NCBI GenBank assembly: GCA_018672315.1
Contig: CP076053.1
Location: 979,827-1,043,826, forward strand
Source of the DNA: Nocardioidaceae bacterium
GTDB taxonomy: Bacteria > Actinomycetota > Actinomycetes > Propionibacteriales > Nocardioidaceae
Direction of reading: 5' to 3'
DNA: 64,000 nucleotides
Positions 22,928 through 42,571 of the stretch are shown in pieces. Below the pieces are notes generated by a model. That model saw nothing but the letters and a program-made list of their open reading frames with translations, ran no database searches and was not told the DNA's origin. The translations under genes and the position numbers were made by a program. Every line of letters starts with the position of its first letter. Position 1 is the first letter of the stretch.

Positions 22928-22933
22928 AGGCTA
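22928..22933 (-). promoter_or_regulatory. leaderless -10 box of purN-purH
   Basis: TAGCCT on the minus strand, 6 nt before the purN GTG. Its first three bases are the TAG stop codon of the upstream membrane-protein gene (22931-22933). Confidence 0.45.
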
Positions 22934-24334
22934 CCGACCGTCGCGGCCGGCGTCCCCAGCGGTCGGAGCCACGACCCGGCGCCACCCCGACGGGGTGAAG
23001 GCGCGTGCGCCGTGCCTCTCGACGACGATCTCGACGGTCTCCTCCTCATCGGTGGAGCCACCGGCGGGAGAGGCTCCGCCGCGACGGTCGCGCAGGATGA
23101 GGAGGCCGGCGCCCGACACGGCCCCGACCCCCAGCGCCGAGACGGACACGAGGAACAGCTCGAGCACCGGTACGCCGACCTCGCCGAGCCGCCCCGGGCC
23201 GACCGACCCCGAGGCCGTCAGGCCGAGCACCGCCAGCACCACGCCGGCGACGACCGCCGCCGCCGCGGCCTGGGCGATCGCCGCGGCCGTGCCGTGGGGA
23301 CGCTCCCTACGGGCCAGCAGCACGACTCCCAGCCCGACCAGCACCGGGGTCACCTGCACGGCGACGAGCCACGACGGGGGTCCGGTGGTGGGCAGGGCGG
23401 CGGTGAAGGGCACCGCGGGCAGCGGACCGAGCGTGACGACCGTCGGGGAGACGAGCGTGCCGGATCCGACCACGACGCCCGGACCGACGAGCCAGGCCGC
23501 CGCCCACACCACCAGGACCGGCAGGACGAGCAGGGAGGCGATGCCGAGCACGACGGTGTCGAGCGGACTCGGCTGCAGTGCCGAGACGGCCTCCGCACCG
23601 GCACCGGCGTGGCGCAGGAGCAGCGCACCGAGGAGCAGGGCTGCGAGCGCAAGCAGGAGGCCTGCCATCGCGACGCCACGCCGCAGGGCCCCGGGCACCC
23701 AGGCCGGCAGGAGCGTACGGGCCCGCGCGAGCAGGGCGTCCTGGCGTCCGGTGCCGGCCGCGAGGGCCGGGAAGGCGCCGAGCACGACGACAGCGCCGGC
23801 CCCGAGCAGGGCGCGCAGCAGCGAGGGGCCGGTCTCCTCGGCGCCGGCGAGGACGACGACCACCAGCGTCGCGACGAGGTAGCCGCCGAGCACCAGTGCC
23901 CCGGCGATGGCGACGTCGAGGTCACCGACCTCGTCCTGGGCCCGCGCCGCCACCCGGCGCCCCGCCCGGCGGGTGGCCAGCACGCTGAGCAGCGTCACGC
24001 CGAGCGGGACGACGCTCACGGCCCCCCAGGGCTGCACCAGGCTCGCCCCCTGGCCGAGCGCCCACGCGTCGGCGGCGACACGCAGGGCGGCGCGAGGCTC
24101 CCACCGCAGCCCGGCGTCAGCGCTGAACCAGCCCATCAGACAGACCACCGCCAGCGCCGCGAGCACCCACAGGGCCGCCAGCACGCCGTCGGCCACCGCT
24201 GCGACCGAGGCGCGGGCGGTGTGCCAGGCGCCGGTCTCCTCCCCCGGCACTGCGCCGGACCCGTCTCCGGGTCCGGTGCCGGTCGAGGCGCCGGCGTCGG
24301 CGTCGGATCGTTCGTCCAGGGCCGTGTCGCTCAT
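22931..24334 (-). CDS. DUF6350/PerM-like multi-pass membrane protein
   Basis: 467-aa integral membrane protein with about ten hydrophobic helices between residues 45 and 425, an acidic Ser/Gly-rich N-terminus and a charged C-terminal tail ending in TAGDAGRDGR. Position directly before purN-purH matches the actinobacterial DUF6350 family, a member of which is called PerM in mycobacteria and linked to cell division under stress. The link is by context and topology; I see no diagnostic motif. The ATG at 24334 is used because the upstream open frame enters the divergent gene. Confidence 0.72.
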   Translation of the reverse strand: MSDTALDERSDADAGASTGTGPGDGSGAVPGEETGAWHTARASVAAVADGVLAALWVLAALAVVCLMGWFSADAGLRWEPRAALRVAADAWALGQGASLVQPWGAVSVVPLGVTLLSVLATRRAGRRVAARAQDEVGDLDVAIAGALVLGGYLVATLVVVVLAGAEETGPSLLRALLGAGAVVVLGAFPALAAGTGRQDALLARARTLLPAWVPGALRRGVAMAGLLLALAALLLGALLLRHAGAGAEAVSALQPSPLDTVVLGIASLLVLPVLVVWAAAWLVGPGVVVGSGTLVSPTVVTLGPLPAVPFTAALPTTGPPSWLVAVQVTPVLVGLGVVLLARRERPHGTAAAIAQAAAAAVVAGVVLAVLGLTASGSVGPGRLGEVGVPVLELFLVSVSALGVGAVSGAGLLILRDRRGGASPAGGSTDEEETVEIVVERHGARAFTPSGWRRVVAPTAGDAGRDGR

Positions 24335-24456: not shown

Positions 24457-24462
24457 TACCGT
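24457..24462 (+). promoter_or_regulatory. -10 box of the sigma-like fusion gene
   Basis: TACCGT, 9 nt before the ATG at 24472, giving a leaderless or nearly leaderless transcript. Confidence 0.4.
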
Positions 24463-24471
24463 CGACCTGAC

Positions 24472-26445
24472 ATGTCTGAGATCTCGGAGTTCGATGCCTT
24501 CTACGGCCGTACGCGCCGTCGTGTGCTCCTGCAGTGCCTGGTGCTGACCGCGACGGTTCCCGAGGCCACGGCGGTGACCATCGGGGCGTACGAGCAGGCG
24601 TGGCGCCGCTGGCGCAAGCTCGGCCGTGACGGGGCGGACGGGCGTGACGGGGCGCCGGAGCGCTGGGTGCGCTCGCAGGTGTACGCCGCGCCGCGTCGTA
24701 CGGGCGGCACGACCGTGCCCCCGACCTCGGCGGACTCGCCCTCGAGCCCGACCCCGGACCACGAGCAGGCGGCCCTGCTCGCCACCCTCGCGACGCTGTC
24801 GGTCGACCAGCGCGCCGTGTGGGCCCTCGTGGAGGTGGCCGGGCTCGGCCCGGACGAGGCAGCGGCCGAGCTCGACCTGCCCTCGGCGACCGTCCGCCGC
24901 GAGCTGGCGGCGGCGCGCTCGACACTGGCCGACCCTCTCGGTTCCGCCACCGGCGACTCCTCGGCGACGTCCGCGCCCGCGCACCAGCCGTGGACCAGCC
25001 AGGACGTGGTCGTGGTGCTCGAGGACCTGGCTCACGTGGTGTCGCTGCCGACGCCGCCCCGCCTGCGCGCGAGCGGCCCGGACCCGGCGCGCCGCCGTCG
25101 CCGCGCGCTCCTTCCCGTCGCAGCGGCGGCGGGAGCAGTCGCCGTCGCTGCCACGGGGTGGGCGGTCGTCTCGGCGACGGACGCCGAGGGCCCGGCGACT
25201 CCTGACGGGCCCGCCGCGGCCGAGGACACGGTCACCCCCCGCGTCCTGCTGGGCCCGTCCGCCCTCGAGGACCTCGGTCCGGGCGGCTGGGTCGAGTCGG
25301 CGACGACCTCCGCGCCGGTCGACGCCGGACCCGGCTCGCTGTGCCAGCTCGCCGCGAGCGCGGATCCCGCCTCGCTCGGCGTCCAGTCGCGTCGCTTCAC
25401 CTCCGGGTCGGCCGCCGCGGAGGAGACGGTGGTGGTGTCCCGCTCGGTCGAGCTCGCCGCGTCGACGTACGAGCGCGCGGTCGGCTGGTGGACCGGGTGC
25501 ACCAACGTGACCGCGCTGCTCCAGGGCGCCTACGCGGTGCCGGAGCTCGGCGAGGAGGCGATCGTGCTGACCCTGCGCGACTGGGCCGACCCCACCGCCT
25601 CCTACGTCGTCGGCCTCGCCCGGGCCGGCGCCGCGACGGTCTCGCTGGTCTCCCTCGATCCCGTCGCGAGCGCTGTCGAGGCGGTCGCCGTGGACGAGCA
25701 GCAGCCGGGCACCCCGCAGGAGGCCGCCTCGGTGCTCGCCGACGCGGTCGCGACGGCCTGCGCCGCGGAGGCCGCGGACTGCGAGACGACCGACGCCCCG
25801 ACCTCCGTGTCCGTCGAGCGCATCTCCCCGCCCGACCCGCCCGGCAGCCGAGGCCTGCTCGCCACCGTCGACCTGCCGCCCGCCGGCGACCTCGCGGAAC
25901 CCTGGTCGACCAGTCCGCCCGTCTCGGCCGACGGTGAGCTGCGACCCAGCGACGACACCGACGCCACGACGCCGTGCGACACCGCCGACCTCGCCACCGC
26001 GGGCGCGGGCGACATCTACTCCCGCACCTTCACGGTGCCCGGGGACCCCGACCTGCCGAGCTACTTCGGGCTCGCCGAGACCGTCGCGACCTTCGCCACC
26101 CCCGACCTGGCCGACCAGTACGTCGCGGACACCGTCGAGGGCTTCGGCACCTGCTCGCAGCGCGTGGGGTCCGCCGTCGTCGCGAATCTCGGCGAGGACC
26201 TCACGACGGGACCGGCCGGCCGGGCCCCCGGTGTCATGGAGTCGGCGGTGTACGCCCTCGCCTACGACAACGAGCAGGACGAGCGGATCTTCCTCCGCAC
26301 CGCGGTCGTGCGCAACGACACCGGCGTCGCGCGGGTGACCCTGGTGCCCGGTCCCGACAACGACATGACCCGGGAGCAGTTCGACATCGTGGTGGTGCGG
26401 GCGCAGGCACGCCTCGCCGCCGCCGGCGACCAGCCGTCCTCCTGA
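24472..26445 (+). CDS. sigma-factor-like protein fused to a membrane-anchored exported domain
   Basis: 657 aa. Residues 1-50 resemble ECF sigma region 2 (FDAFYGRTRRRVLLQ...AYEQAWRRW) but the acidic DxxQE core of region 2.2 is missing. Residues 105-152 resemble region 4 (LSVDQRAVWALVEVAGLG, then a helix-turn-helix LPSATVRRELAAARSTL). A basic stretch RRRRRA (about 207-212) precedes one transmembrane helix (213-235). The remaining 420 residues are exported, Thr/Ala/Pro/Asp-rich, with two related halves that each have a DLGPGG- or AETVATF-like module and paired cysteines. Probably a membrane-tethered regulator or a degenerate sigma/anti-sigma fusion; function unknown. Confidence 0.75.
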   Translation: MSEISEFDAFYGRTRRRVLLQCLVLTATVPEATAVTIGAYEQAWRRWRKLGRDGADGRDGAPERWVRSQVYAAPRRTGGTTVPPTSADSPSSPTPDHEQAALLATLATLSVDQRAVWALVEVAGLGPDEAAAELDLPSATVRRELAAARSTLADPLGSATGDSSATSAPAHQPWTSQDVVVVLEDLAHVVSLPTPPRLRASGPDPARRRRRALLPVAAAAGAVAVAATGWAVVSATDAEGPATPDGPAAAEDTVTPRVLLGPSALEDLGPGGWVESATTSAPVDAGPGSLCQLAASADPASLGVQSRRFTSGSAAAEETVVVSRSVELAASTYERAVGWWTGCTNVTALLQGAYAVPELGEEAIVLTLRDWADPTASYVVGLARAGAATVSLVSLDPVASAVEAVAVDEQQPGTPQEAASVLADAVATACAAEAADCETTDAPTSVSVERISPPDPPGSRGLLATVDLPPAGDLAEPWSTSPPVSADGELRPSDDTDATTPCDTADLATAGAGDIYSRTFTVPGDPDLPSYFGLAETVATFATPDLADQYVADTVEGFGTCSQRVGSAVVANLGEDLTTGPAGRAPGVMESAVYALAYDNEQDERIFLRTAVVRNDTGVARVTLVPGPDNDMTREQFDIVVVRAQARLAAAGDQPSS

Positions 26446-26461: not shown

Positions 26462-26498
26462 GACAGAGCCCCCGACGGCGTCCGTCGGGGGCTCTGTC
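26462..26498. terminator. bidirectional terminator, sigma-like gene and sucD
   Basis: A perfect 16-bp stem (GACAGAGCCCCCGACG with CGTCGGGGGCTCTGTC) and a 5-nt loop between two convergent genes. Confidence 0.85.
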
Positions 26499-34171: not shown

Positions 34172-34855
34172 TCACAGCAGACGGCGCTCGCTGGCCCAGC
34201 GCGTCAGCTCGTGGCGGCTCGAGAGCTGGAGCTTGCGGAGCACCGCGCCCATGTGGCTCTCCACGGTCTTGACCGAGATGAACAGCTCGGCGGCGGTCTC
34301 GCGGTAGGAGTAGCCGCGGGCGATCAGACGCATCACCTCGCGCTCACGCTCGGTCAGCCGGTCCAATGCGGGGTCGAGGGAGGTCGGGGGCGCCGCGCCG
34401 GCGCCTGCGAAGGCGTCCAGCACGAATCCGGCGAGCCGGGGCGAGAACACCGCGTCACCGTCGGCCACCCGGCGTACGGCGTCCAGCAGCTCGTCGCGGG
34501 AGATCGTCTTGGTGACGTAGCCGCGCGCTCCGGCACGGATGGCACCGATGACGTCCTCGGCGGCGTCGGAGACGCTCAGCGCCAGGAACCGGGTGCCGGG
34601 CGCGCGGGCCCCCACCTGCTGCAGGACGCTCGCCCCGCCCCCGCCGGGCAGGTGGATGTCGAGCAGGACCACCTCCGGACGGTGCGTGAGCACGGCGGCC
34701 ACGGCGCCCTCGACGTCCTCGGCCTCCGCGACGACCTCGACCGCCCCGGCGAGCTCCCCGCGCACCCCGGCGCGGAACATCGCGTGGTCGTCGACCACCA
34801 CGACCCTCGTGGGTGTGGTCGGCGAGGGCCGCTCGGCCGCCCCGGGGCCGGTCAC
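34172..34855 (-). CDS. LuxR/NarL-type response regulator
   Basis: 227 aa transcription factor of a two-component system. The receiver domain (about residues 16-130) has the acidic pocket in VVVDDHAMF, the phosphoacceptor aspartate in VVLLDIHLPGGGG (about Asp 65) and the lysine in GYVTKTIS. A C-terminal LuxR helix-turn-helix follows (LTEREREVMRLIARGYSYRETA...SVKTVESHMGAVLRKL). The GTG start overlaps the kinase stop by 4 nt. The 18-bp palindrome upstream of the kinase is its likely operator. Confidence 0.93.
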   Translation of the reverse strand: MTGPGAAERPSPTTPTRVVVVDDHAMFRAGVRGELAGAVEVVAEAEDVEGAVAAVLTHRPEVVLLDIHLPGGGGASVLQQVGARAPGTRFLALSVSDAAEDVIGAIRAGARGYVTKTISRDELLDAVRRVADGDAVFSPRLAGFVLDAFAGAGAAPPTSLDPALDRLTEREREVMRLIARGYSYRETAAELFISVKTVESHMGAVLRKLQLSSRHELTRWASERRLL

Positions 34856-36132
34856 CGGGCCGCCTCCGCGGGTCGCGGGACCCGGAGGGTCACCTCGGTG
34901 CCCCAGCCGGGGTGGGTGCGGACGTGCGAGGTGCCCCCGGCGCGCTCGAGCCGTCCGGCGATGCTGTGCCGCAGACCGCGGCGGTCCTCGGCGACCTCGG
35001 TGACCTCGAAACCGCGACCACGGTCCCTGACGAACACCTCGACGAGATCGGGCGCCACCTCGGCGTACACGTCGACGCTGGGCGCACCGGAGTGACGTGC
35101 CGCGTTGGTCACGGCCTCGCGGGCGGCGGCGACCAGCGGCTCCACGAGCGGGTCGTCGGCCGCCAGGTCCCCGACCACCACGACGTCGACGGTCACCCCC
35201 GTGCCGTCCTCGACGGACGCGGCGGCCGTACGCAGCCCCTCGGCCAGGTCGAGCGCACCACCGGTCGGCCGGTCCGCGAACAGCCACGTCCGCAGCTCGC
35301 GCTCCTGGCCGCGCGCCAGCCTCGAGACCGTCGCCGGGTCGTGGGCGCTGCGCTGGATCAGCGCGAGCGTCTGCAGCACCGAGTCGTGCAGGTGGGTCGC
35401 GACGTCGGCCCTCTCCTCCGAGCGCACCCGCTCGGCGCGCTCCTCGAGGTATCCCCGGGCCAGCCGGGCCACCCAGGGGCCTGTGACGACCCCGACGACC
35501 ACCACGACGAGCAGCCCGCCGCCCAGGGAGCTGCGGCCGACCAGCAGCACCGCGAGCGCCGCCACCAACAACGTGACGCCGCCGACGAGACGCGCGTACG
35601 CAGGGAGCCCACCGCGGCCGAGCAGCAGCCCGAGGATGCCCAGACGTCCACCGGCGAGCCGCTCCTCCTCCGCCACGTCGGCCTGCCGCCAGAGCGCCGC
35701 GAGCCCGGCGCCGGCCAGCAAAAGGGGCCACACGAACCCGGTCGTGCCCGTCAGCGCTCCGAACAGCCCGACCCCGCCGAGCACGAGCGCGCCCACGACC
35801 GCCCACGCCCCCGCGACCGCGAGGGGAGTGCGTCGCCCGGTGCGCAGGCCTGCACGCTCGGCGGCCACCAGACCGGGGGCCTCGGCGGCGGCACGGTCGC
35901 GGCGGACCGCCCGGTCGCTGGGCAGCACCAGCCACAGCGCGGCGTACAGCACGAGCCCGAAGCCGCTCGCGAGCACCAGGAGCGCGAACGTCCACCGCAC
36001 GTGCTCGGACCGGACGCCGAGGTGCTCCGCCACGCCTCCGGCGACACCCCCGACCCACCGGTCGGAGGTGCTGCGGAACGCACGGGGCACCTCCCCGTGA
36101 GGGGGCGCCGAGGCGGGGGCCGTCGTGGTCAC
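34852..36132 (-). CDS. PspC-domain sensor histidine kinase
   Basis: 426 aa membrane histidine kinase from GTG 36132. The N-terminal PspC domain (about residues 18-72: WVGGVAGGVAEHLGV...LWLVLPSD) is followed by several hydrophobic helices. The dimerisation segment carries the phosphoacceptor histidine in HLHDSVLQTLALIQ, typical of NarL-partner kinases. The ATPase domain has EAVTNAARHSG and DRGRGF. Probably senses envelope state through PspC. Coupled by a 4-nt overlap to the response regulator. GACCAT lies 6 nt upstream of the start. Confidence 0.9.
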   Translation of the reverse strand: MTTTAPASAPPHGEVPRAFRSTSDRWVGGVAGGVAEHLGVRSEHVRWTFALLVLASGFGLVLYAALWLVLPSDRAVRRDRAAAEAPGLVAAERAGLRTGRRTPLAVAGAWAVVGALVLGGVGLFGALTGTTGFVWPLLLAGAGLAALWRQADVAEEERLAGGRLGILGLLLGRGGLPAYARLVGGVTLLVAALAVLLVGRSSLGGGLLVVVVVGVVTGPWVARLARGYLEERAERVRSEERADVATHLHDSVLQTLALIQRSAHDPATVSRLARGQERELRTWLFADRPTGGALDLAEGLRTAAASVEDGTGVTVDVVVVGDLAADDPLVEPLVAAAREAVTNAARHSGAPSVDVYAEVAPDLVEVFVRDRGRGFEVTEVAEDRRGLRHSIAGRLERAGGTSHVRTHPGWGTEVTLRVPRPAEAAR

Positions 36133-36138
36133 ACCCCC

Positions 36139-36144
36139 ATGGTC
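36139..36144 (-). promoter_or_regulatory. possible leaderless -10 box of the kinase-regulator operon
   Basis: GACCAT on the minus strand, 6 nt before the GTG at 36132; the GAnnnT form mirrors GACGAT before the divergent PspC gene. Confidence 0.35.
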
Positions 36145-36166
36145 GCGCAGCGGACCCGGGGTGGGA

Positions 36167-36184
36167 ATCAGGGAAGTCCCTGAT
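36167..36184. promoter_or_regulatory. palindromic operator in the PspC divergent promoter
   Basis: ATCAGGGA-AG-TCCCTGAT, a perfect 8-bp inverted repeat with a 2-bp centre. Its centre (36175.5) is exactly 43.5 bp from both start codons (36132 and 36219). Confidence 0.65.
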
Positions 36185-36206
36185 GTGGCCGGCCGGTCCG
36201 CGAGCC

Positions 36207-36212
36207 GACGAT
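36207..36212 (+). promoter_or_regulatory. possible leaderless -10 box of the PspC/toast-rack operon
   Basis: GACGAT, 6 nt before the ATG at 36219, same form and spacing as the divergent kinase promoter. Confidence 0.35.
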
Positions 36213-36218
36213 GGAGCC

Positions 36219-37406
36219 ATGAACGAGACCCATGACCCCGGCCCCGGACCCGACTCCGACACCATGACGGACCCCGGGCCCCAGCCACAGCCCCGACCAC
36301 AGCCCCAACCACCGGGGCCTGTCCAGCGCGCTTCGCAGCTGACCAGGTCCCACGAGGACCGCTACCTCGGTGGTGTGGCCGGCGGTCTGGCCAGGCACCT
36401 GGCGATCGATCCGCTGCTGGTGCGGGTGGTGCTGGTCGTGCTGGGGCTCTTCGGTGTCGGGGTCGCGCTGTACGTCGCCCTGTGGCTCCTGCTCCCCGAC
36501 GAGGCCACCGGAGCCGCTGCCGTCCGGACCTCCCCCTCCACACGCGGCTGGATCGTGGTGGCCGTGGCCGGGTTGAGCGCCCTGTTCCTCCTCGGTCCGG
36601 TGATGGGCCTCGGCGACGCCGGACCGCTGGTCCTCCTCGCTCTCGTCGTGGGGGCGGTGCTCTTCGTGCGCGAACGTCGATCGCGGCGAGCGGGACCGCG
36701 GCCGGTGCCGCCGGAGGCGTACGCCACCCCCCCGGCGCCGTTGGCGCCGCCCGCGCCCCGACGTCCCCGGCGCACCGGTCCGCTGCTGCTGTGGCCCGCG
36801 CTCGCGCTGATCGCCGTCGCGTGGGGCGCCCTCGGCCTGCTCGAGGCGCTGGGTACCGACGTGCGAGGCTCGATCTACCCCGCCGTGGGCCTGACCGTCG
36901 CCGGGGCCCTGCTCGTGCTCGGCGCCTGGCGCGGCCGCCCGCTGCTGCTCGGACTGCTCGGCTTCACCATGTCAGTCGCCCTGGCGATCACGTCGGCGGC
37001 CGAGAGCGGCGCGTTCGACGCGGAGACCACCCGGGTGGCCCCGACCGAGGTGTCCGCGCTGCCGGTGACGACGACCGTCGGGAGCGGTGACTACGTGCTC
37101 GACCTGCGCGGCATGGACCCGGCCGACCTCGCGGGTCGCGACATCACCCTCACGGGGTCCCTCGGTCAGATCGACGTGCTCCTGCCGGCCTCGGTACCGG
37201 TGCGTCTGCGAGGCGTGGTCGACGTGGTCGGCGAGATCCTCGTCGTGGGCTCGGACGCCGGCTGCAGCGGCTTCGACTGCCGCGTCGACACCCTCCTCAC
37301 CCCGGACGGGGAAGGGACCGGCGGATCGCCCGACGCCGTGTCCGACCCGCTGGACCTGCGACTGACCCTGACCGCGGGCGTGATCCGCGTGGTGCCTGAG
37401 GCATGA
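36219..37406 (+). CDS. PspC-domain membrane protein with LiaF/toast-rack-like C-terminus
   Basis: 395 aa. A Pro/Gln-rich N-terminus (about residues 17-34) leads to a PspC domain (about 44-95: YLGGVAGGLARHLAI...LWLLLPDE), then further hydrophobic helices near 106-125, 128-143, 190-210 and 220-260. The C-terminal 110 residues (from about 290) form a beta-rich region with GDYVLDLRGM, TLTGSLGQIDVLLPASVPV and VDVVGEILV, resembling the LiaF/DUF2154 toast-rack domain. Likely an envelope-stress sensor or effector working with the divergent kinase. ATG chosen at 36219; an upstream in-frame ATG at 36183 overlaps the operator. Confidence 0.85.
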   Translation: MNETHDPGPGPDSDTMTDPGPQPQPRPQPQPPGPVQRASQLTRSHEDRYLGGVAGGLARHLAIDPLLVRVVLVVLGLFGVGVALYVALWLLLPDEATGAAAVRTSPSTRGWIVVAVAGLSALFLLGPVMGLGDAGPLVLLALVVGAVLFVRERRSRRAGPRPVPPEAYATPPAPLAPPAPRRPRRTGPLLLWPALALIAVAWGALGLLEALGTDVRGSIYPAVGLTVAGALLVLGAWRGRPLLLGLLGFTMSVALAITSAAESGAFDAETTRVAPTEVSALPVTTTVGSGDYVLDLRGMDPADLAGRDITLTGSLGQIDVLLPASVPVRLRGVVDVVGEILVVGSDAGCSGFDCRVDTLLTPDGEGTGGSPDAVSDPLDLRLTLTAGVIRVVPEA

Positions 37407-40751: not shown

Positions 40752-42044
40752 TCAGGGCACCGGCTCGTAGCGGGCGAGCTCACGACCGCCGTCCATGAGG
40801 ATCAGGCTCTGCGGGCCGACCAGCACGCGGTCGGCCTGCTCGACGCCGACGCCGGCGGGACGTTCGCACCGACGGCGGGGCGTGCACCCGGTGCGCTCCT
40901 CGGAGCCGGCAGAGGTCGAGAGGGCGCCGTCGGGCCCGACGTCGTACTGCCTGACGTGGCGGTTCACACCGTCATTCCAGGTCACCGTGCGCCCGGTGAG
41001 GACGATGCGCCCCAGCGTCCCGGGCAGCGGCGGCTGACCCGCCACGTCGACGAGCCGCCAGGTGCCCACCAGGTCCTCGTCGGTCGCCGCGGTCGGCGAG
41101 GTGAAGTCCACCGGGTCCTCGCTGTCGGCGACGTAGGTGACCTCGACGGCGGCGCCACGAGGCACCACCGTGCCGGGCTCCACGTCGGTGCTCACGACGG
41201 TCCCGGTTTCCCCCTCGCTCGGGGCCACGGGCACCGGCATCGCCACCAGGCCGTAGGACTCGAGCAGTCGCACGTACGTCTCCACGCCCAGCCCCTCGTA
41301 CGCCGGCACGCCCGCGTGGTCGTCGACGACGCGCACCCGGTCGAGGATGTCGTCGACGGTGCGGGCGTCGGTGGTCGACCGTGCGCCGACCTCGAGCCCG
41401 AGCTCGTCGAAGACGACCGATGCCCCGCACTGCGGCGGGCGGGTCTGGAAGCAGAAGACGCCGGCGCGGCCGGCCGGCTCCCCGGAGACGACCCTGTCCT
41501 GCTCCATCCCGGGTGTGTCGTCGTCGACCGGCCCGACGGTCACCCGCTCCAGGCGGCTCGCGAGCAGGTCGCACGCGTCGGCGTCGTCCTGCGGGTCGGC
41601 ACCGGAGGTCACGTACGCCGCGTCGCGCGGGCAGGCGCGGCCGTCCCCTGCGTCGAGCACCCACTCGCTCGGCACCGAGACGACGACGGGTCCGACGCCC
41701 AACCAGACCGATCCCATCGGCGGGGCCCCGAGGCGGCGCTCCGTCTGCAGGGGTGGTTGTCCGCCCTCGGCCGGTCCGGCGTCCGTCGCACGGTCGGAGG
41801 CGGCCGGAAGGAGGCTCTCGGCGGCGATGCCCGCCCCTCCCACGAGGAGGGCGCTGGCCGCCGCGACCGCCAGGGCGGCCACCCAGGGGCGGCGCACGAC
41901 CTCGCTGCGGACCCGCCGTCCCGGACGGCTCGCGTCCCGGCGGATCTCCGCCACCGGTGCCGCTGCGACCGGCAGCCGCTCCGCCTGGCGCTCCAGCGCC
42001 GCGGCGACCCGACTCTCGATGTCGTCGTGATGACGGCTGCTCAT
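40752..42044 (-). CDS. membrane protein with PASTA-like domain, probable anti-sigma partner
   Basis: 430 aa. A cytoplasmic N-terminus (about 1-52, DDIESRVAAALERQ...) leads into one transmembrane helix (54-77). The exported part has a cysteine-bearing region (about 115-235), then a PASTA-like module (about 240-300: GLGVETYVRLLESYGLV...VVSTDVEPGTVVPRGAAVEVTY) and a C-terminal beta region beginning LVGTWRLVDVAG, which recalls META/HslJ-type domains. Directly downstream of the ECF sigma gene with a 1-nt overlap, so it is probably its membrane regulator; no ZAS zinc motif is visible. Confidence 0.75.
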   Translation of the reverse strand: MSSRHHDDIESRVAAALERQAERLPVAAAPVAEIRRDASRPGRRVRSEVVRRPWVAALAVAAASALLVGGAGIAAESLLPAASDRATDAGPAEGGQPPLQTERRLGAPPMGSVWLGVGPVVVSVPSEWVLDAGDGRACPRDAAYVTSGADPQDDADACDLLASRLERVTVGPVDDDTPGMEQDRVVSGEPAGRAGVFCFQTRPPQCGASVVFDELGLEVGARSTTDARTVDDILDRVRVVDDHAGVPAYEGLGVETYVRLLESYGLVAMPVPVAPSEGETGTVVSTDVEPGTVVPRGAAVEVTYVADSEDPVDFTSPTAATDEDLVGTWRLVDVAGQPPLPGTLGRIVLTGRTVTWNDGVNRHVRQYDVGPDGALSTSAGSEERTGCTPRRRCERPAGVGVEQADRVLVGPQSLILMDGGRELARYEPVP

Positions 42045-42571
42045 CAGCGACCACGCTCCTCGATCAGCGCGGGGTGGGCGGCCAGGGCCGCCAGCGCCCG
42101 CGACGTACGACTCTTGACGGTGCCCACGGCGATCCCGAGCGCCTCCGCGGTCTCGGCCTCACCGAGGTGGGCGTAGTAGCGCAGCACCACGACGGCGCGC
42201 TGCGCCTCGGGCAGACCGGCCACCGCGCGGGCCAGGAAGTCCGCCTCGTCGACCGACGCCATCGGGTCGAGGGCCTCCCCACCCGGCGGCTCGGGCAGGT
42301 GCTCGACCGGCCGTTCGCCCCACCAGCGCCTGCGGCGCATCGAGGTGAACAGGTTGACCAGGATGCGGTGCACGTACGCGTCGCGGTTCTCCGCCGCACT
42401 GACCCGGTCCCACTTGAGCAGACACCGCGTGAGGGTCTCCTGGGCGACGTCCTCGGCCTCGGACGGCGATGCCCCGAGCAGCACCGCCGTCCGCACGAGA
42501 CGTGGCCAGCGGGCGTGGACGTACGCGTCGAAATCCGCGTCCGTCCCGCCCGTGTCGGCGCCGCTGCTCAC
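42044..42571 (-). CDS. ECF sigma factor (SigE-like family)
   Basis: 175 aa RNA polymerase sigma factor. Region 2 (about residues 13-75) includes LVRTAVLLGASPSEAEDVAQETL with the conserved acidic core, then AYVHRILVNLFTSMRRRRWW. Region 4 (about 110-165) has LPEAQRAVVVLRYYAHL and the helix-turn-helix ALGIAVGTVKSRTSRAL. I choose the GTG at 42571 because GAGGCT lies 7 nt upstream; a GTG at 42586 is in frame. Overlaps the PASTA membrane protein gene by 1 nt. Confidence 0.92.
   Translation of the reverse strand: MSSGADTGGTDADFDAYVHARWPRLVRTAVLLGASPSEAEDVAQETLTRCLLKWDRVSAAENRDAYVHRILVNLFTSMRRRRWWGERPVEHLPEPPGGEALDPMASVDEADFLARAVAGLPEAQRAVVVLRYYAHLGEAETAEALGIAVGTVKSRTSRALAALAAHPALIEERGR

Follow-up and report, generated by a model that had tools for sequence, protein, structure and literature searches.

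The open reading frame at 24472..26445 on the forward strand of the window (the whole stretch of 64,000 nucleotides from a Nocardioidaceae bacterium analysed here) represents a genuine, conserved gene for a protein of 657 amino acids plus stop, in which a sigma-like cytoplasmic domain (residues 1-155) is joined by one transmembrane helix to two exported lobes. Comparison with related loci supports an origin of this protein from a SigE-family ECF sigma factor and its membrane-sensor partner, joined in frame. The sigma-like domain most likely does not start transcription, because the positions for contacts to RNA polymerase and promoter DNA are mostly lost while the predicted fold is kept and the domain is under purifying selection. 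Probably, it has been retained as a protein-binding module of sigma shape, attached to an envelope sensor and with no part in initiation.

The gene and its genomic slot

The start codon ATG 24472 is backed by the family-conserved N-terminus M....EFDAFY. By eye, no clear ribosome-binding site was visible upstream of it (window 24457-24474), and the hexamer TACCGT, whose end lies 9 bases upstream of the ATG, is a possible -10 box of a leaderless transcript. The divergent neighbour (22931..24334, reverse strand) encodes a DUF6350 membrane protein (Pfam E 6.8e-62), which may correspond to PerM. Between the convergent fused gene and sucD lies an inverted repeat (26462..26498) whose 17-bp arms match perfectly around a 3-nt loop; it lacks a T run but may terminate transcription in both directions. 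A scan for promoters and terminators found none and did not call this repeat as a terminator. Elsewhere in the window (34172-37406) two divergent PspC-domain genes were found, one of them with a histidine-kinase-type ATPase domain, and a gene that by eye resembles a response regulator adjoins this pair.

Among 58 whole genomes searched, full-length relatives with 27-35% identity were present in 26 of the 37 genomes of the window's own family group (f1), its own genome included. The other 11 comprise one genome with the gene interrupted by a contig end (G031), two drafts with the exported part and no sigma part (G007, locus L056; G024, locus L068), six without the exported domain and two with a weak one-lobe match. 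A wider draw, overlapping with the first, comprised 147 genomes of the order and was searched with a profile; here 49 of 52 f1 genomes gave a single full-length match; two of the remaining genomes matched in two pieces and one over positions 5-441 only. The named f1 relatives are mostly Nocardioides. In Nocardioides ungokensis (L100 4139-7028) the fused gene is apparently split over several frames, which may indicate a pseudogene or a sequencing error. The usual place of the fused gene is between sucCD and purN/purH, with both sides found in 22 of 26 loci (purN and purH in 25, sucC and sucD in 23); a DUF6350-like neighbour was detected by BLAST in 20 of the 26.

The same slot was compared in further family groups, whose names are guesses: Propionibacteriaceae (f2), Kribbella (f3), Actinopolymorpha (f4) and Micromonosporaceae (f23). 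At four f4 loci (L064, L065, L066, L123) it contains a separate sigma gene. This sigma was intact in the three loci tested (L064-L066; Pfam E about 1e-12 for region 2 and about 1e-14 for region 4). The ORF that follows it there combines an arginine-rich start and a hydrophobic segment with a Pro/Thr linker and a domain of exported type. Five f23 loci (L134-L137, L139) possess one or two separate sigma/membrane-sensor pairs, labelled mm1 and mm2 by gene order and scores. Where only one pair is present, its sigma reached 232-235 bits against a profile of intact sigmas. At the loci with two sensors, the sigma beside the DUF6350-type gene scored 149 bits (L135, L139) or was missing (L137), and the other one scored 228-233 bits. 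Separate sigma and sensor genes of f4 and f23 commonly overlap by 4 or 8 nt, so that a small indel could fuse them. The proposed fusion origin is supported by the separate sigma and sensor genes of f4 and f23 in this slot, and by a second, intact sigma of Nocardioides iriomotensis that forms one ORF with its sensor.

Sensors without a sigma part occur as well. In all 38 f3 genomes, four of which had this locus read in sequence, the best match does not begin before profile position 169, and 15 f2 loci encode a sensor with a low-complexity cytoplasmic stretch, usually with a PRR-type motif at its start, in which no sigma match was found. Across families one slot would accordingly house a two-gene pair, a fusion with an apparently disarmed, maintained sigma, or a sensor lacking a sigma. 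The sensor tree, in which row f4_L064 is a wrong-frame translation and is disregarded, contained several long branches and placed the sn2 rows unreliably. By sequence reading, a kynureninase-like gene lies beside the sigma/sensor genes at L134, L135, L137 and L139 and also at L033, L035, L038 and L053. Its presence in f23 and several f1 loci hints at an old conserved gene block.

Membrane segment and exported lobes

The first-pass annotation of this DNA had placed a single membrane helix at residues 213-235. Hydropathy analysis agreed, with residues 212-234 (25105..25173, forward strand, as all parts of the protein given below) as the sole hydrophobic segment; no 19-residue window of the fused protein starting outside 200-235 reached KD 1.6. 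The helix is preceded by a cytoplasmic juxtamembrane segment (residues 176-211, 24997..25104) with an arginine run at its end. By eye, this segment resembles the short stretch LPxxEVRRRGxRxRRR with which the separate membrane partners begin on the cytoplasmic side.

The exported region had been described as a domain with two related halves, and this was borne out: the halves proved homologous in a profile-profile comparison (P 6.7e-6 over 162 columns) and each was modelled as a lobe. Lobe 1 (residues 251-433, 25222..25770) is predicted to adopt the fold of the PknH extracellular domain, to which it was matched by structure (4esq; Z 14.9 in the whole-protein model, Z 14.3 in an exported-only model with a mean pLDDT of 82.7). 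It also matched TiME (Z 13.2-13.7). Lobe 2 (residues 455-652, 25834..26427) shows a related fold in structure and profile matches, best to 3lyd (Z 10.4), with DcrB, LpqN and MTC28 at lower Z and PsbP among the matches, too. Of 20 family members, 11 matched the Pfam family PknH_C (PF14032) with E 0.01 or better; the window protein itself gave no PknH_C match at E 10. Six of the seven cysteines of the window protein sit in the exported part. Six cysteine columns of this part are invariant in family alignments of 20 and of 24 rows, and the fused family alignment contains no invariant cytoplasmic cysteine.

The window's own genome encodes a separate 290-aa protein matching one exported lobe (L138 6010-6882; G000:C1 about 3232000). 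It has a hydrophobic, cysteine-containing N-terminal start, and no sigma gene was found beside it in the stretch read.

State of the sigma-like domain

A region 4-like segment had been noticed from the letters alone, and Pfam confirmed it: Sigma70_r4_2 matches residues 101-152 with E 6.4e-7, above the gathering score. The NCBIfam model of the SigE family (TIGR02983) covers residues 5-156 with 43.9 bits (E 2.3e-11), below its cut-off of 141.55. It was the best NCBIfam match of the window protein and the sole one at 1e-5 in three fused relatives, which scored 43.0, 46.6 and 55.3 bits; four intact sigmas scored 145.9-172.8 bits. A generic helix-turn-helix (HTH), which the first annotation had named as a possible source of the similarity, was rejected, since the region 4 match is to sigma families and the best NCBIfam model spans nearly the whole domain. 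Together with the slot common to intact members, the TIGR02983 match indicates descent of the window protein from the same ancestor as the SigE-family sigmas. Both Pfam regions, 2 and 4, which together mark a functional ECF sigma, were present in all eight intact sigmas scanned. The window protein displays region 4 alone, with no Pfam match to region 2, and region 2 was detected at E 0.01 in just 1 of 20 family members scanned.

In an AF2 model built for the whole protein from 24 sequences (mean pLDDT 77.5, pTM 0.53), a sigma fold is predicted at the N-terminus, the lack of which would have spoken against the first reading. It consists of a sigma2-like part with three helices (residues 1-76, 24472..24699) and a sigma4-like part with four helices (residues 97-153, 24760..24930), with block means of pLDDT between 84 and 95 over residues 1-50 and 91-150. 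Compact ECF sigma structures (SigW with RsiW, RpoE with NepR, SigG1, CnrH with CnrY) match this model with Z 12.6-13.4 and an rmsd of 3.0-3.7 Å; a Z of about 13 does not by itself settle the matter for helical bundles, and here it agrees with the sequence evidence. The sigma chains 5wuq, 5wur, 5uxx and 4cxf, solved with an anti-sigma factor, match at 3.0-3.5 Å, whereas most sigma chains from polymerase complexes deviate by 22-28 Å. There are counter-examples: the rmsd is 10.1 Å for SigK with RskA, and for AlgU/MucA and sigmaE/RseA the alignment is confined to one domain. PhyR structures match the sigma-like model, too (Z 8.5-11.6), and the Pfam family PhyR_sigma-like matches 1 of 20 family members (E 0.0097).

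The loss of contacts can be followed at 13 positions that were chosen for their invariance in a set of 42 intact close relatives and which, from general knowledge of ECF sigmas, presumably touch the polymerase or promoter DNA. All 27 fused proteins keep only 1-5 of these 13, the window protein 5. The intact set leaves out the sigma at 42044 of the window, L036b and two degenerate f23 copies, which keep 10, 8, 8 and 9, respectively. Intact SigE-type sigmas from other branches are without 3 and 5 of the 13, so several of these positions, taken singly, can be missing from one sigma factor or another. In the window protein all four region 2 positions scored are lost: the QE motif of region 2.2 is replaced by I-G, in line with the earlier remark on a missing acidic core, and the tryptophan of region 2.4 is absent as well. 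The second position of region 2.2 is acidic (D or E) in 21 of the 27 fused proteins. The HTH of the window protein is partly retained (T, V, R, L, R), better than in most fused relatives. Furthermore, the linker between sigma2 and sigma4 is shorter, with 39-47 residues in 27 fused proteins compared to 51-56 in 44 intact ones; two degenerate f23 sigma copies have linkers of 43 and 47 residues.

The fold core is retained by comparison. Five fold-core positions are kept in 23-27 of the 27 fused and in 39-42 of the 42 intact proteins, the window protein differing at one of them, the glycine of the HTH turn. In 16 close pairs of relatives, which share genomes and are hence non-independent and do not include the window's own gene, dN/dS of the sigma-like part was 0.03-0.40 and that of the exported part 0.19-0.66; the sigma-like value was the lower one in 12 pairs, the higher in 3 and equal in 1. 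The neighbouring intact sigma exhibited 0.06-0.24 in the 13 pairs possessing one. The sigma-like part of the relatives is under purifying selection. Since its contacts are lost and it is nevertheless under such selection, it would be neither a normal sigma nor a dead relic.

Possible roles and known systems

Two roles had been suggested from the sequence at first sight, an active sigma released from the membrane by proteolysis and a dead sigma acting as a decoy. The second fits better as far as the dead sigma is concerned, but dN/dS values well below 1 do not agree with junk. In the reading that we favour with modest confidence, that of a non-initiating binding module, a SigE-family sigma gene would have been fused in frame with its membrane-sensor partner gene, and the sigma part would afterwards have lost most positions for holding RNA polymerase and promoter DNA with its fold kept. 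The sigma-like domain may stay in a compact shape, like that of an anti-sigma-bound sigma, at the inner face of the membrane, where it could dock on its own arginine-rich juxtamembrane segment. It might then report or respond to envelope contacts of the two PknH-type lobes. The idea of a compact shape is weakened by SigK/RskA, AlgU/MucA and sigmaE/RseA, as these do not match the compact model. DNA binding by the window protein may persist, its HTH being better preserved than that of its relatives and its Sigma70_r4_2 match lying above the cut-off.

An active tethered sigma, with lobes that sense a signal, proteases that cut the membrane segment and a freed sigma that directs RNA polymerase, appears unlikely. 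Its architecture and membrane segment resemble the class of fused ECF sigmas released by proteolysis (IutY, and as proposed ECF52), and the kept sigma fold, the purifying selection and the partly intact HTH would suit it. Moreover, Nocardioides iriomotensis carries, near its degenerate fusion, a second SigE-family sigma, intact and continuous in frame with a sensor of the same kind (636-aa ORF, L033 5585-7495, reverse strand; the same gene in L073), a candidate for a real one-protein sigma/sensor. Set against this are the few intact-invariant positions left in every fused member, the failure of 19 of 20 members to match Pfam region 2 at E 0.01, the linker shortened in all 27 and the survival, in f3, f2 and two f1 genomes, of a gene that lacks the sigma part; all this weakens the earlier suggestion of a released sigma.

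Rather improbable, in our estimation, is a membrane-tethered counterpart of PhyR, in which an exported sensor of PknH type would drive a retained pseudo-sigma in its competition for anti-sigma segments. If it were true, the state of the envelope would be relayed by sigma mimicry at the membrane with no sigma being freed, and a sigma would have been fused to its own membrane partner and then disarmed.

We regard as improbable a PhyR-like mimic whose sigma-like domain, on a signal, would vie with the sigma of a paralogous SigE/sensor pair for the anti-sigma tail and thereby free that sigma. The loss of contacts with retention of the fold is of the same kind as in PhyR according to the sections available of PMC8103513, and the structural matches to PhyR and the single Pfam hit point the same way. 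In a draw biased to close relatives, 32 of 34 loci with the fused gene had an intact-type sigma downstream of it, but in a broader draw such a sigma was present within the fetched stretch in only 5 of 26 fused loci; a sixth (L036) contains a different sigma type 4.6 kb away. The paralogue test covered 19 selected of the 26 fused genomes and two without the fused sigma part. A close intact sigma paralogue at E 1e-25 was absent from 8 of the 19, the window's own genome included, which also tells against the earlier notion of a decoy for a closely paralogous sigma; a ninth fused genome (G028) gave only a 96-bit match. More distant SigE-family sigmas do exist despite this absence. One of them is encoded in the window itself at 42044-42571 (reverse strand; TIGR02983 172.8 bits, above the cut-off) and overlaps by one base the gene for a 430-aa PASTA-domain protein, the two together spanning 40752-42571. 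PASTA is a domain type of PknB-like kinases. Partners of sigma factors would thereby be linked with kinase-type extracellular domains in two forms, the PknH-type lobes and the PASTA protein.

That the sigma part is a functionless, decaying fossil of the fusion and the exported lobes alone matter is highly improbable: the lobes do remain where the sigma part is absent (f3, f2, two f1 genomes) and the contact positions are mostly gone, but the low dN/dS, the single full-length match in nearly all f1 genomes of the wider draw and the kept fold core stand against decay.

Among known systems, the SigE-family ECF sigmas with a partner gene are homologous over residues 5-156, and their partners have a short arginine-rich cytoplasmic start, a transmembrane segment and an exported part as in the fused protein. 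They are encoded by two genes, however, whereas the window holds one protein that stays far below the SigE-family cut-off. Actinobacterial ECF sigmas fused to a membrane part are described for ECF52 (SCO4117), ECF48 and ECF53 in the available portions of PMC8999054 and PMC5826349, which present fused ECF sigmas, SCO4117 (PMC5826349) among them, as thought or shown to be freed by proteolysis. As far as these portions go, they share with the window protein an N-terminal sigma, a transmembrane segment and an exported C-terminal region, and the long extension behind the membrane segment that is typical of ECF52 is predicted for the window protein, too. It differs from ECF52 in its PknH-type lobes, which replace the carbohydrate-binding module, and in its degenerate sigma part. 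Membership in ECF52 was rejected for lack of a zinc-finger anti-sigma domain after sigma4: Pfam detected no zinc finger in the window protein at E 10, nor was one among the six Pfam families matched by 20 members at E 0.01. IutY of Pseudomonas putida (ECF243), a sigma fused to a membrane anti-sigma-like part, is likewise a combination of sigma and membrane part, and in the excerpts of PMC8999054 it appears as an active, proteolysis-released sigma of iron signalling.

PhyR of Alphaproteobacteria has an ECF fold whose regions for polymerase and promoter are degenerate, and it titrates an anti-sigma factor (PMC8103513, in the sections available). The window protein would resemble it in this combination of fold and degenerate contacts, as judged from model and sequence. 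PhyR has a receiver domain and binds NepR, according to the same sections; the window protein, with no Pfam match to a receiver domain, has a transmembrane segment and exported lobes instead. The extracellular domain of PknH from Mycobacterium tuberculosis (PF14032) has the fold predicted for lobe 1, but PknH carries one lobe on a kinase and the window protein two on a sigma-like domain. Presumably Rv0954 adjoins perM in M. tuberculosis, for which reason the slots were compared. Orthology with Rv0954 was dropped because its four transmembrane helices and Pro/Gln-rich C-terminal half, as given in the accessible part of PMC8093794, differ from the architecture of the fused protein.

The fused family was absent from the top matches in open-licence literature, which is weak evidence of novelty. 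Known are membrane-fused ECF sigmas and the soluble pseudo-sigma PhyR; their combination was not found in these matches. Caution is advisable in annotating such fused proteins as active sigma factors. If confirmed, the role proposed here would provide a sigma-derived module with a non-initiation function outside the Alphaproteobacteria, in a protein that has the membrane architecture of the fused ECF group and a sigma part in the state described for PhyR.
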